Source: Anaerolineales bacterium
GTDB taxonomy: Bacteria; Chloroflexota; Anaerolineae; Anaerolineales; Villigracilaceae
Reading direction: 5' to 3'
DNA: 64,000 bases
Assembly (NCBI GenBank): GCA_015075275.1
Contig: JABTUU010000001.1
Location: forward strand, 186,001-250,000
Numbering within the stretch: position 1 is the stretch's first letter; the number at the start of each line of letters is the position of its first letter. Positions 10,587 through 36,775 of this stretch are shown one piece after another. The position numbers were made by a program, and so were the translations under genes. The notes under the pieces were generated by a model. It searched no databases, was not told the origin of the DNA, and was given only the letters and a program-made list of their open reading frames with translations.

Positions 10587-11507
10587 ATGACAAGAGCCGT
10601 TTTTATGGGTTCGCCCGAATTCGCATTGCCGAGTCTGCGCGCGCTGGCGAGCGCGTACGATGTGGTCGGCGTGGTGACGCAACCCGATCGTGCCTCGGGG
10701 CGTGGGCGCGAGGTGAAGATGCCGCCCGTCAAAACCCTCGCGCTCGAGTTGGGACTCCCCGTGATGCAACCCGAAAAACTGCGCGCGCCCGAAGCGATGG
10801 AAACTCTCCGCGCGTGGTCGCCCGATCTCATCGTCGTTGCTGCGTTCGGGCAGATCCTCAAACAGGATGTGCTGGACCTGCCGCGCTTTGGATGCCTCAA
10901 CGTGCACGCCTCATTGCTTCCGCGATGGCGCGGCGCGGCTCCCATCAATGCCGCGATTTTGCATGGCGATGAGGTGACCGGCGTGACCATCATGAAAATG
11001 GACGCGGGACTCGACACCGGCGCGATGCTGGCGAAGAAATCTATGCGCCTCCCTCCCGACGGGACGGCTGGTTCAGTCACCGACGCGTTGTCTCACCTCG
11101 GCGCCGACTTGCTGATCGAAACCCTTCCGCGCTGGATCACTGGCGAAATTCAACCTGAGCCGCAAGATGATTCGCTCTCAACGTACGCGCCGATGATGAA
11201 AAAAGAAGATGGGCGACTCGACTTCACGCGCGATGTGAACGAACTGGAAAGACAAGTCCGCGCGTTGAGCCCGTGGCCCGGCGCGTTCATGGAATTCGAT
11301 GGGGCGGTCCTCAAAATTCATCGAGCGCATGTGGGACAAATTGTCAATTTGTCCCACGAGGCGGGGCAGAGGCTGACGCAGGCGAATCAGCCCGCCGTCG
11401 GCGCGAGAGGCGGGGTTCTCATCCTGGATGAAGTGCAGCCCGCCGGGAAAAAATCCATGAGCGGGAAATCGTTTCTTGCGGGCGCGCGTCATTGGGCTGG
11501 AGAATGA
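10587..11507 (+). CDS. fmt: Methionyl-tRNA formyltransferase
   Basis: The enzyme formylates initiator Met-tRNA using 10-formyl-THF. The catalytic trio N105, H107 and D143 is present in NVHASLLPRWRG and DAGLDTG, equivalent to N106/H108/D144 of E. coli. The C-terminal OB-like domain is present (VRALSPWPGAFMEF ... LDEVQPAGKKSMSGKSFL). Residues about 249-257 are encoded by a perfect 27-base palindrome that sits in frame in the C-terminal domain. The gene stops one base before glpK starts (TGAATG). No peptide deformylase gene is adjacent. Confidence 0.95.
   Translation: MTRAVFMGSPEFALPSLRALASAYDVVGVVTQPDRASGRGREVKMPPVKTLALELGLPVMQPEKLRAPEAMETLRAWSPDLIVVAAFGQILKQDVLDLPRFGCLNVHASLLPRWRGAAPINAAILHGDEVTGVTIMKMDAGLDTGAMLAKKSMRLPPDGTAGSVTDALSHLGADLLIETLPRWITGEIQPEPQDDSLSTYAPMMKKEDGRLDFTRDVNELERQVRALSPWPGAFMEFDGAVLKIHRAHVGQIVNLSHEAGQRLTQANQPAVGARGGVLILDEVQPAGKKSMSGKSFLAGARHWAGE
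11331..11357. repeat. In-frame 27 bp palindrome within fmt
   Basis: Arms GTGGGACAAATTG and CAATTTGTCCCAC are exact reverse complements around a single T. The palindrome is nine codons long, lies wholly inside fmt and keeps the frame. A related palindrome (GTAGGTCAAATTG arms) is at 32109-32156, also in frame. Confidence 0.85.
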
Positions 11508-31455: not shown

Positions 31456-31493
31456 CTTTCCACTTTCTGCCGTAGAATATAGAAAGTGGAAAG
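31456..31493. repeat. CTTTCCACTTTCT palindrome
   Basis: Perfect 13-base arms CTTTCCACTTTCT / AGAAAGTGGAAAG around a 12-base loop occupy the gap between the lipid kinase and the helicase-associated gene. The right arm ends five bases before the next ATG and supplies the only purine-rich stretch ahead of it. A similar family lies in frame at 32673-32719. Confidence 0.75.
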
Positions 31494-31498
31494 TAGAT

Positions 31499-33313
31499 AT
31501 GCCCGACTTAATTCACTCCCTCCTCCACCAAGACATCGGACACCTTCGCATCATCGCGGAATTATGGGGACTCGATTTGGAATCTACGGATTCAGATTCA
31601 GCGCGAGATGAACTATCCGCCTCTCTCCTCGACGTCAACCTGCTCGCAGACCATCTAGCCTCTCTCCCCCCCGAAGCGGACTCCGCCATCGCCGCCCTCA
31701 TCGCCTCCAACGGACGAATCGCATGGGCAATATTCGCGCGTCAATTCGGTGACATCCGCGAAATGGGCGCAGGCAAACGCGATCGGGAACATCCGCATCG
31801 GAATCCAACTTCAACATCAGAGATCCTTTTTTATCGCGGCATATTGGCGCGCGCATTCTTCGACACAAACAAAGGCTCGCAGGAGTTTGCGTACATTCCC
31901 GATGATTTGTTCAAGTTAATGAAAGAAGAAAGCGATGCCCTGAGCTCATCGAAGGGAGAAAAGAACTTAGCGAACTTCGCGGGCTTGACGGTTAATAATT
32001 CCGAGCCGCTCGGTCGCCCAGCATCACCCAACGAAAAAGGGACAGAGATTCTCGCGGACGATTCCATCCTCGACGATGCCACCACCCTGCTTGCCGCGTT
32101 GCGCATAGGTAGGTCAAATTGGTCGCGAAGCATCCCTGTAGGACAATTTGACCTACGACTCATTGCCTTGCTCGCCTCTGCAAATCTCATATCCCCCTCT
32201 CCTGCTGGGAGAGGGGCTAGGGGTGAGGGAGAAGTCAATGCCGAAGAAGCAAAAACTTTCCTTGAAGCCTCACGCGCCGACGCGTTGAAGACGCTCTACG
32301 ACGCATGGCTCGAAAGCGATAGGTTCAACGAACTCAAACTCATGCCGAACATCATCTGCGAGGGCGAATGGAAAAACTCTCCGCGCGATACGCGAAGGAC
32401 GATACTTGGCTTTATCAATGCAATCCCTACAAACAAATGGTGGAGCGTGGCAAGTTTCGTCCAAGCGATAAAACAAACACAACCCGACTTTCAGCGTCCC
32501 GCAGGCGATTACGACTCGTGGTTCATCAAACGCGCCTCCGATGGACAATACCTGCGCGGATTTGATTCATGGAACGAAGTGGACGGCGCGTTGATTCGGT
32601 ATTTCATCAATATCCTTCATTGGCTTGGGCGGCTGGATTTAAATTTTGCAGAAAATGCAACAGAGGCAACTTCTTTCCGTCTTTCTTCTTTCCAAAACAC
32701 GAAAGAGGAAAGAGGAAAGATAACCGCTTCATCCAACGGCAAGGTGAGCGTGGAAAGATTCACGCCGCGCGTTGTGCGTTATCAGATCGCGAGATTTTGC
32801 GAGTGGGAAGATGGCGATTTCGATATGTCGCTTCGCAAGTATCCGACTAGCCGAAGTGTTTATAAATATCACATCACCGCGAAGTCGTTGAAACACGCCA
32901 AAGAACAGGGACTGAAAGCCGAGCAACTCTTGTCTCTACTTGTGAAGCATACCGATAACAAAGTCCCGCCGCCGCTGGTGAAAGCGCTCAAACGATGGGA
33001 CGCTAATGGCACGCAGGCTCGGGCTGAGACTCAAACCATCCTACGGGTGAGTCAGCCCGAGGTGTTGGAAGAGATGCGCAAGTCGAAGGCGGGAAAATTT
33101 TTGGGCGAGATATTAAGTCCAACGGCGGTTGTCGTCAAAAACGGAGCCATCCAAAAAGTGATGGAAGCGATGATCGAGTTGGGATTGTTTGCGGAAATCC
33201 ACACAAATCCATCATTGCGAGCGAACGAAGTGAACGAAGCAATCCCCTACGAGGACAATGTCTCCGATACGACGAGGGGATTGCTTCGTCGCAACGAACG
33301 CTCCTCGCAATGA
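31499..33313 (+). CDS. Helicase-associated (XPB/Ssl2 N-terminal-like) protein with five in-frame repeats
   Basis: The N-terminus IAELWGLDL, ASLPPEADSAIAALIASNGRI and FARQFGDIREMG, and the C-terminal part ITAKSLKHAKEQGLKAEQLLSLLVKHTDNKVPPPLVKALKRW, resemble proteins with the helicase-C-3/XPB N-terminal domain found in Chloroflexota and actinobacteria. No helicase motifs are present, so it is likely a DNA-binding or helicase-partner protein. Five repeat units are inside the frame, at residues about 147-153, 204-219, 232-244, 392-407 and 572-604. The last supplies the C-terminus and stop. Without them the protein would be about 520 residues. Confidence 0.7.
   Translation: MPDLIHSLLHQDIGHLRIIAELWGLDLESTDSDSARDELSASLLDVNLLADHLASLPPEADSAIAALIASNGRIAWAIFARQFGDIREMGAGKRDREHPHRNPTSTSEILFYRGILARAFFDTNKGSQEFAYIPDDLFKLMKEESDALSSSKGEKNLANFAGLTVNNSEPLGRPASPNEKGTEILADDSILDDATTLLAALRIGRSNWSRSIPVGQFDLRLIALLASANLISPSPAGRGARGEGEVNAEEAKTFLEASRADALKTLYDAWLESDRFNELKLMPNIICEGEWKNSPRDTRRTILGFINAIPTNKWWSVASFVQAIKQTQPDFQRPAGDYDSWFIKRASDGQYLRGFDSWNEVDGALIRYFINILHWLGRLDLNFAENATEATSFRLSSFQNTKEERGKITASSNGKVSVERFTPRVVRYQIARFCEWEDGDFDMSLRKYPTSRSVYKYHITAKSLKHAKEQGLKAEQLLSLLVKHTDNKVPPPLVKALKRWDANGTQARAETQTILRVSQPEVLEEMRKSKAGKFLGEILSPTAVVVKNGAIQKVMEAMIELGLFAEIHTNPSLRANEVNEAIPYEDNVSDTTRGLLRRNERSSQ
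31938..31957. repeat. CCCTGAGCTCATCGAAGGGA repeat, in frame
   Basis: The 20-base unit CCCTGAGCTCATCGAAGGGA encodes ALSSSKG within the helicase-associated gene. It is of the same class as 24533-24558 and 35398-35422, in reverse orientation to both. Confidence 0.65.
32109..32156. repeat. GTAGGTCAAATTG palindrome, in frame
   Basis: Exact 13-base arms GTAGGTCAAATTG / CAATTTGACCTAC flank a 22-base centre; total 48 bases or 16 codons. The arm differs from the fmt palindrome only at two positions (GTGGGACAAATTG), so the two are one family. Confidence 0.85.
32193..32230. repeat. CCCCTCTCC-GGAGAGGGG repeat, in frame
   Basis: A CCCCTCTCC-TGCTG-GGAGAGGGG hairpin is followed by CTAGGGGTGAGGGA. It encodes SPSPAGRGARGEG. 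The hairpin plus GGGTGAGGG tail is a common dispersed pattern in diverse bacteria; only one copy is in the window. Confidence 0.6.
32673..32719. repeat. CTTTCC...GGAAAG imperfect inverted repeat, in frame
   Basis: Pyrimidine-rich CTTTCCGTCTTTCTTCTTTC and purine-rich GAAAGAGGAAAGAGGAAAG arms flank CAAAACAC. The arms pair with a few mismatches. It encodes the SFRLSSFQNTKEERGK stretch. Confidence 0.6.
33212..33313. repeat. 102 bp fold-back (MITE-like) repeat supplying a C-terminus
   Basis: The left arm TCATTGCGAG...AGCAATCCCCT and the right arm, read in reverse, TCATTGCGAG...AGCAATCCCCT match at both ends, around a 30-base centre. The whole 102 bases are open in the helicase-associated frame, and the terminal TGA of the repeat is its stop codon. 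This ATTGCGAG...CGCAATGA type is a common non-autonomous fold-back element in bacteria. Confidence 0.8.
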
Positions 33314-35237: not shown

Positions 35238-35397
35238 ATGAAACCATAGAATGGTGTCCTTGCCAATGGACGAGTCTTCAAGCTCAACCGCGCCCAACAA
35301 AGCGTACTAAGAACCAAAAACACGGATATAGGGTTGCTGAAGCAGACGCGATTCCGTAACAAATGAAATCAAAATTCGACCCGCAGAAACATCATCG

Positions 35398-35422
35398 CCC
35401 CTTCGGCTACGCTCAGGGCAGG
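35398..35422. repeat. CCCTTCGGCTACGCTCAGGGCAGG unit in the RAYT gene
   Basis: The unit encodes PFGYAQGRR near the RAYT N-terminus, without breaking the frame. It is the same class as those at 24533 and (reverse) 31938. Confidence 0.65.
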
Positions 35423-35666
35423 CGCTCCATTCGGTTGAAGGGATACGATTATTCCTCCGAAGGCGCGTATTACGTCACGGTTGTGGCGCAGGGACGGGAA
35501 TGTTTGTTTGGGGAAATCGTTGACGGGGAAGTGATCCTCAATGAATACGGAAAGATCGTTCAAAAATGGTGGAACGAAATCCCAATCCATTTTCCGAATG
35601 TGGAATTGGGCGCATTCGTCATCATGCCAAACCATGTTCACGGAATCATTTTTATTTTTGAGGAAC

Positions 35667-35752
35667 GTAGGGGCGAGGTCCTCTCGCCCCGTGAGAACCC
35701 AAATAACAATAACCTGAACGCGAATGATCAGGGCGGGGAGACCCCGCCCCTA
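35667..35752. repeat. REPIN-like inverted REP pair inside the RAYT gene
   Basis: The left unit GTAGGGGCGAGG-TCC-TCTCGCCCC and the right unit GGGCGGGGAGACCCCGCCCCTA face each other across about 39 bases. The outer sequences pair (TAGGGGCG / CGCCCCTA). The unit is the same as in glpK (12189-12255). The frame stays open across it. Confidence 0.85.
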
Positions 35753-35913
35753 GGTAAACCAACGTTGGGGCAAATCATCGCGTATTTCAAATATCAATCT
35801 ACCAAAGTGATGAACAGGATTGAAACCCCGAATGCCATTACGCGATTCTGGCAGCGCAATTATTACGAACACATCATCCGCAACGAAAAAGAGTTACAAC
35901 AGAAAACGGATTA

Positions 35914-36775
35914 GACCTCTTGCATAAGTGTGCCATAATAGGTGCATGCGATACGAAACCGTACAAAACCTCAAGGATGAAGACTTCAAACGATGCACAG
36001 GCGTCCAGCGCAACACCTTTGAACAAATGCTGGCAATCATGGAAGCAGGCTTGCGTAACTTTGGCAGGCCAACTACGCTCAAGCGAGCGGACCAGTTACT
36101 GATGACCTTGATGTACTGGCGTGAATATCGCACTGAATTTCACATTGGCTTGACCTATGGCGTCAGCGAGTCAACGGTCTGTCGCACCATCCAAAAGGTT
36201 GAAAATGTGCTGATCCAATCCAAGCAGTTTCACCTGCCGGGCAAAAAAGCGTTGCAACCCAGCGATACGATCTTTGAAATTGTGCTAGTAGATGTGACTG
36301 AACAGCCAGTTGAGCGACCAAAAAAAGACAAAAACGGCATTACAGCGGCAAAAAGAAGCGCCATACCCAAAAAGCGCAGTTGATGGCCGACTTGAATACC
36401 GAGCAAATCCTAGCCACAGACTTCTGTCACGGAAGTTGCCATGATTTTCAGTTGTTCAAACAAAGTCGCTCCAGGGTCGCAGAACACATTTGGATTTTAG
36501 CCGATGCTGGCTACCAAGGATTGTCCAGTCTGCACTCGAATAGCCAGACACCGGCCAAGAAAAGTAAACTTCATCCTTTGAGCGCGGCACAAAAGACCGC
36601 CAATCGCAAGTTATCCAAGAAACGCATTGTGATCGAGAACATCATCCGCAAATTGAAAATCTTCCGGATCTTGAGTGAACGCTACCGCAATCGGCGAAAA
36701 CGCTTTGGTTTGCGTTTCAATTTGATTGCAGCCATTTACAACCTGGAACTCAAATCATGACTTTTGCAAGAGGTC
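35914..36775 (+). mobile_element. IS5-family insertion sequence (IS427-like), 862 bp
   Basis: Terminal inverted repeats GACCTCTTGCATAAGT (left) and GACCTCTTGCAAAAGT (right, read inward) differ at one position. TA dinucleotides flank both ends (35912-35913 and 36776-36777), fitting a TA target duplication; a TTA duplication is also possible and would better restore the RAYT frame. The element carries one transposase made by a -1 frameshift. Confidence 0.88.
35946..36760 (+). CDS. IS5-family DDE transposase, orfA/orfB joined by -1 frameshift
   Basis: orfA (35946-36383) has a helix-turn-helix (YGVSESTVCRTIQKVEN) and the first catalytic Asp in IVLVDVTEQPVERPKK. orfB continues with YSGKKKRHTQKAQLMADL, the second Asp in WILADAGYQG and the Glu region KRIVIENIIRKLKIFRIL. 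The frames join if the ribosome slips back one base on A7G at 36320-36327: the fused sequence ERPKKRQKRHYSGKKKRHT is the normal family motif. The fused protein is about 271 residues. ATG at 35946 is chosen over GTG at 35928. Confidence 0.88.

Follow-up and report, generated by a model that had tools for sequence, protein, structure and literature searches.

The window, the 64,000-nt stretch of DNA analyzed here (positions 186001-250000 of its contig), belongs to a 2.88-Mb genome whose nearest named relatives are metagenome assemblies from Anaerolineales and other Chloroflexi. It carries a gene for a 604-amino-acid 'helicase-associated' protein (31499..33313, + strand), which we characterized by its Pfam match, predicted fold, orthologues and dN/dS. 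Helicase_C_3 (aa 454-531) is the sole Pfam domain of the protein. Orthologues are present in 38 of the 41 genomes searched and also at 80 named loci. Directly 5' of the start codon lies the palindrome CTTTCCACTTTCTGCCGTAGAATATAGAAAGTGGAAAG (31456..31493, +), in which heptamer-like arms (CTTTCCACTTTC/GAAAGTGGAAAG) flank a -10-like TAGAAT.

Five repeat elements lie in frame inside this gene, as an earlier note had claimed, and all five were found where it had placed them. They add up to 254 bases or 14.0% of the gene, in agreement with the earlier figure of about 250 bases or 14%. All are on the + strand. Element a (CCTGAGCTCATCGAAGGG, 31939..31956; linker A, aa 147-153, LSSSKG) is a TCA variant of the usual CTGAGCCTGTCGAAGG, which a sister genome has at the same place. 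It is without clear arms of its own, and its site in relatives holds other families or no element. Element b (GTAGGTCAAATTG...CAATTTGACCTAC, 32109..32156; linker B, aa 204-220) is a GTAG-type palindrome with 13-bp perfect arms. Its center is 21 bp longer than the 27-bp form of relatives, and the extra bases contain GCGAAGCATCCCT, which may resemble half of another GTAG palindrome. Element c (CCCCTCTCCTGCTGGGAGAGGGG...GGGTGAGGG, 32189..32230; linker C, aa 231-244, ISPSPAGRGARGEG) consists of a CCCTCTCC-N-GGAGAGGG hairpin followed by GGGTGAGGG. Element d (TCTTTCTTCTTTCC...GGAAAGAGGAAAGA, 32680..32720; site D, aa 394-408) is a heptamer-repeat palindrome (CTTTCTT CTTTCC / GGAAAGA GGAAAGA) located in a predicted beta-hairpin loop. 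Element e (TCATTGCGAG...CTCGCAATGA, 33212..33313) is a 102-base fold-back in which two CATTGCGAG/GAAGCAATC-type units are placed head to head. It encodes the C-terminal tail (aa 572-604) and supplies the stop codon, and it is missing in close homologues, whose proteins end shortly after aa 566. Linker E (aa 439-453; 32813..32855, +) looks like a possible decayed sixth element on the strength of a weak 28-base local match to a relative's TGGTCGAGTAG...CGTATCGAGACCA repeat (local score 14, reached by 0 of 1000 shuffles). The inverted repeat at 33018-33061 was rejected as an element because it is conserved protein sequence in orthologues.

Copy numbers were compared with a control, the same pattern read backwards. 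The pattern of element a (CTGAGCNNNTCGAAGG) occurs 6 times in the own genome against 0 for the control, and up to 73 times in a single relative. The patterns of c (CCCTCTCC-N-GGAGAGGG), d (GAAAGAGGAAAGAG) and e (CATTGCGAG-N-GAAGCAATC) occur 18, 12 and 17 times, again against 0, and reach 134, 31 and 180 copies in a single relative; reversed-pattern controls in relatives gave 0 to 3 matches per strand. Elements c, d and e are thus dispersed, multi-copy, short palindromic repeats. The GTAGGTCAAATTG palindrome of element b is present in a single copy in its own genome, and its 27-bp core occurs in 9 copies in one related genus, in 4 and 3 copies in two others and in 2 copies in a congener. Since the core is dispersed in related genera, element b is a family member with its other copies outside its own genome. 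The broader pattern GTAGGG-N-CCCTAC was rejected as a family of the own genome (4 matches, 4 in the control); most of the matches listed for relatives are near-perfect palindromes. Rfam matches to a CRISPR repeat or miRNA fell below gathering scores and were taken as chance.

In a codon-level alignment of the orthologues, the conserved blocks are separated by six variable segments: site A spans aa 145-167, B 203-220, C 231-244, D 394-408 and E 439-453, and site F follows aa 566. In the window gene, all of these except E hold one of the five elements. For 86 non-redundant Anaerolineales orthologues, which are related to one another and so are not independent, we counted inverted repeats with 11 or more pairs against a null in which synonymous codons were shuffled within each gene; 46 were observed where 6.75 were expected. 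Forty of these lie within the six sites (null about 2; 20 at site D), and the remaining 6 compare with a null of about 5. At these loci, a single inverted repeat was counted in the upstream lipid-kinase gene (75 sequences; 2.4 expected) and two in the downstream BioF/Kbl gene (64 sequences; 5.3 expected). The codon-shuffle null and the neighboring genes together rule out chance inverted repeats.

Elements that are in frame in one orthologue are missing from others. Linker A ranges from 14 to 65 aa across homologues, and linker C is 12 aa in most homologues and 22-30 aa where an element is present; relatives of element c occur there in 3 of the 86 orthologues. On a tree of the conserved columns, the element state must have changed at least 30 times at site D and 25 times at A, followed by B with 12 changes, E with 9, F with 4 and C with 3; these minimum counts are approximate, with element classes assigned by simple patterns. 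With five sites occupied, the window gene has the maximum among the 86 orthologues, and 32 of the 86 are without a recognized element at any site. The alignment to homologues that the earlier note had proposed as a check thus revealed that the element residues are missing, differ in length or are replaced by other families at the same places; on this comparison, the five elements are not ancestral protein sequence.

The same site is filled by different families in different orthologues. Linker A holds a CTGAGCCTGTCGAAGG-type unit in 3 orthologues, d-type GAAAGAGG heptamers in 8, CACGAAG-type elements in 8, CGGAGNCACAGAG-type repeats in 2 and GTAG palindromes in 3 (e.g., TTGTAGGGACGACGCATGCGTCGTCCCTACAA at locus L015). 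Site B holds GTAG palindromes with differing cores (GTAGGTCAAATTGGCAATTTGACCTAC, GTAGGTCGGATTGGCAATCCGACCTAC and GTAGGGGCGACTCACGAGTCGCCCCTAC), and site D mostly AAAGAGG or TCGAAGG heptamer palindromes. Element b and most site A and B palindromes of relatives have the GTAG tetranucleotide at the foot, starting with GTAGG and finishing with CCTAC. Elements are also nested: an a-type unit lies within element c at L015 and within the site-D TCGAAGG palindrome at L105, and a CACTTGC...GCAAGTG palindrome lies within the site-D element (d) at L019. At the 3' end of the gene at L010, L015 and L016, a TGGTCGAGTAG...CGTATCGAGACCA repeat provides a TAG stop codon, and this family is also found in frame at site E of other relatives.

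Comparisons among close relatives separated the core of the protein from its linkers. Core dN/dS is 0.11-0.17 (about 0.15; 7 comparisons), and linker dN/dS is 0.37-0.69. The core is under purifying selection and, by this measure, the gene is functional. An AlphaFold model from 57 aligned sequences has a mean pLDDT of 81.6, with low values at aa 151-167, 201-220, 231-240, 441-450 and 570-604. Sites A, B, C and E and the C-terminal tail are therefore predicted to be flexible, which bears out the earlier suggestion of a tolerant protein with disordered linkers for these segments. The prediction of disorder does not extend to site D, which has fair confidence (pLDDT about 86) and sits between predicted strands 392-395 and 408-410 as a beta-hairpin loop.

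The predicted fold of the host protein appears to resemble that of TFIIH p52/Tfb2. The best Foldseek hits are subunits of TFIIH, with E values as low as 5e-10. VIA-align gave collinear matches over about 368 residues with Z up to 10.0, 13-14% identity and an rmsd of about 26. All 16 of its rows above Z 8 are TFIIH-containing entries, including 6trs, named p52, and its matches include the Tfb2 C-terminal domain entry 3dom. Residues 404-504 match chain 7 of yeast pre-initiation complexes, which we take to be the XPB homologue Ssl2. The collinear match would take in XPB-clutch-like and Tfb2 C-terminal-like domains. The high rmsd reflects shifted domains and, together with the low identity, limits the likeness to a statement on fold; orthology is not implied. 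Unlike p52/Tfb2, the host protein has a different domain arrangement, and its genome has no XPB over the family cut-off, the XPB family model returning nothing near it. Tfb2 had neither a Pfam match nor a PDB sequence match to the host protein, for which a profile search of the PDB gave no match.

The statement that no other gene has so many elements held in the 464 kb sampled from the own genome, where the host gene has 5 and any other of the 428 genes at most 2. A second genome (G012) was sampled over 400 kb, with one 20-kb stretch chosen so that it covered the orthologue; there the orthologue leads 358 genes with 5 elements, ahead of 3 in the runner-up. Such elements also occur singly in other genes. 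At L124:16002-16030, an in-frame GTAG palindrome lies in a fusion of shikimate kinase with 3-dehydroquinate synthase, in the stretch that joins the two domains, an inter-domain position which suggests that other recipients fit tolerance as well. Within the window, the formyltransferase gene (10587-11507) contains a perfect in-frame palindrome, GTGGGACAAATTGTCAATTTGTCCCAC, at 11331-11357.

The palindrome upstream of the start codon also recurs. A palindrome within 120 nt upstream was found in 38 of the 86 orthologues, and in 33 of the 86 TANAAT stands at its center, against 0 of 69 for the upstream neighbor and 2 of 60 for the downstream neighbor. Loci with an upstream palindrome around TANAAT include L044, L045, L046, L059, L061 and L086. 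Among the ORFs of two genomes, palindromes with a centered TANAAT occur at 2 of 351 and 2 of 289, each count including the host gene. The palindromic promoter is specific to the host gene relative to its neighbors and to other genes. Its arm types vary by species (CTTTCCA, CCAATTA, ACACGCA, AGGTTGG and GTAGACAG), and between L045 and L046, two close relatives, the arms are completely exchanged. If TANAAT is a real -10 box, the transcript would begin within the right arm and would lack the hairpin.

Several known systems resemble what is found here. Cyanobacterial STRR are short tandemly repeated heptanucleotide units. The elements described here share the tandem heptanucleotide units with them, but here the heptamers are arranged as inverted arms, are found in a coding loop and around a promoter, and vary by species. 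In-frame palindromic repeats in bacterial genes are already known from Rickettsia (PMC10969869) and from REPs (PMC3733652). Rickettsia palindromic elements (RPEs; Ogata et al. 2000, 2002) comprise several families found as in-frame fusions in conserved genes, as cited in PMC10969869. The resemblance is one of behavior only: RPEs are reported there to be about 150 bp and spread over unrelated genes, whereas the elements here are about 18-102 bp and lie in one Chloroflexota gene. Intragenic REPs are GTAG- and CGTC-tagged dispersed palindromes of 20-40 bp that lie in frame, often in repair genes, and sometimes provide the stop codon, and cases with two insertions per gene are known (PMC3733652). 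Different REPs occupy about the same site in recB of two Xanthomonas species, and REP-tagged proteins may carry their insertions in flexible linkers or loops, a flexibility suggested there as the reason for tolerance (PMC3733652). The host gene likewise contains in-frame dispersed palindromes, some headed by GTAG, one of which supplies a stop codon. It differs from the typical one or two sites per gene in having five families and six recurrent sites across dozens of orthologues, and an association with RAYT was not found here.

We consider it probable that REP/RPE-like families, mostly palindromic, have inserted repeatedly into this gene and have survived where the protein tolerates them, which agrees with the flexible-linker suggestion made for REPs (PMC3733652). 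Different families of small interspersed repeats would insert into one conserved gene at different times. Insertions would survive at flexible inter-domain linkers, in a hairpin loop or in the C-terminal tail, with the reading frame kept open. The same linkers would be colonized, overwritten and recolonized by different families across Anaerolineales, so that a good share of the linker peptides would be translated repeat DNA, with the folded domains left intact. The identity and repetitiveness of the elements, their presence or absence between orthologues, their restriction to linkers and their nesting are observed, as is purifying selection on the core; we infer that the elements moved by insertion and affect the protein in a nearly neutral way. 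Tolerance alone, however, is silent on why the host gene ranks first in two genomes. It also leaves the palindromic promoter unexplained, as a promoter is no linker, and site D is predicted with fair confidence and no disorder.

We found no target-site duplication or transposase association. No GTAG palindromes flank the RAYT-like gene at 35363 or any of the four Y1_Tnp genes of the genome, and a RAYT (REPtron) origin of the GTAG palindromes was rejected for this reason. The RAYT-like ORF (35363-35914) resembles a REP-associated tyrosine transposase, and its N-terminal PFGYAQGR resembles a translated CCTTCG..GCTCAGG-type repeat; an ORF at 35928, transposase-like in appearance, adjoins it.

The gene might instead be a favored target, in line with the earlier note's other suggestion of a region favored by the elements, or a selected one, with palindromes kept in linkers and promoter for a function, e.g., cruciform regulation or altered repair-protein activity as proposed for REP-tagged repair genes. 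Its first rank among 428 and 358 genes speaks for this, as do the centered-TANAAT counts and the concentration of intragenic REPs in replication and repair genes, which PMC3733652 argues is hardly fortuitous. However, the 32 orthologues without a recognized linker element, the interchangeable sequences and families and the relaxed rates at which the linkers evolve make it unlikely, and the neighbors used for comparison are compact enzymes rather than linker-rich genes.

Slippage and template switching (heptamer expansion and hairpin-templated copying) could also make palindromes locally, without dispersed insertion. The site-D and upstream elements are heptamer repeats that vary in sequence by species while keeping their symmetry, and heptamer arrays of many units occur genome-wide (9 in 464 kb and 16 in 400 kb, 0 in shuffled sequence). 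Tandem heptanucleotide arrays (CCAATTA, CCAGTCT, AGGTTGA and others) were seen at L124:13523-13558, L127:12713 and L132:1876 and at others in L174-L193. This may be how some of the palindromes arose, the heptamer ones in particular. As an account of the elements, however, local origin seems improbable to us: families a, c and e and the core of b are identical at many unlinked loci, which local processes do not give, and known families are inserted within one another.

We hold it to be very doubtful that the gene is selected to stay palindromic. On this view the promoter palindrome would control expression, either as a cruciform or as an operator that evolves together with a p52-like protein regulating its own gene, and the palindromes in the linkers would belong with it to one structure-dependent system. 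The palindrome itself is proposed as the controller because symmetry around the -10 box is kept while the arms are swapped between close species. Ancestral protein-coding sequence that is repetitive by chance fits only the inverted repeat at 33018-33061 and can be practically dismissed, as the orthologue alignment found none of the five element sites conserved in sequence or length.

Repeated insertion with survival at tolerant sites would make the host gene a natural insertion experiment replicated over a bacterial order. We found no repeats of this kind in Chloroflexi in the literature searched. As far as that literature shows, five families in one gene, six recurrent sites across an order, their match with predicted flexible segments and a gene-specific palindromic promoter are new. 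The linkers would tell which mobile palindromes had been active in a given lineage, and the conserved core would show what the protein cannot accept. The comparison offers direct support for the suggested survival of in-frame palindromic repeats within flexible linkers. Several unrelated families share landing sites, and insertion, replacement and decay could be dated in this gene. Two separate leads can be tested, namely the palindromic promoter specific to this gene and the apparent p52-like fold in the absence of a clear XPB.
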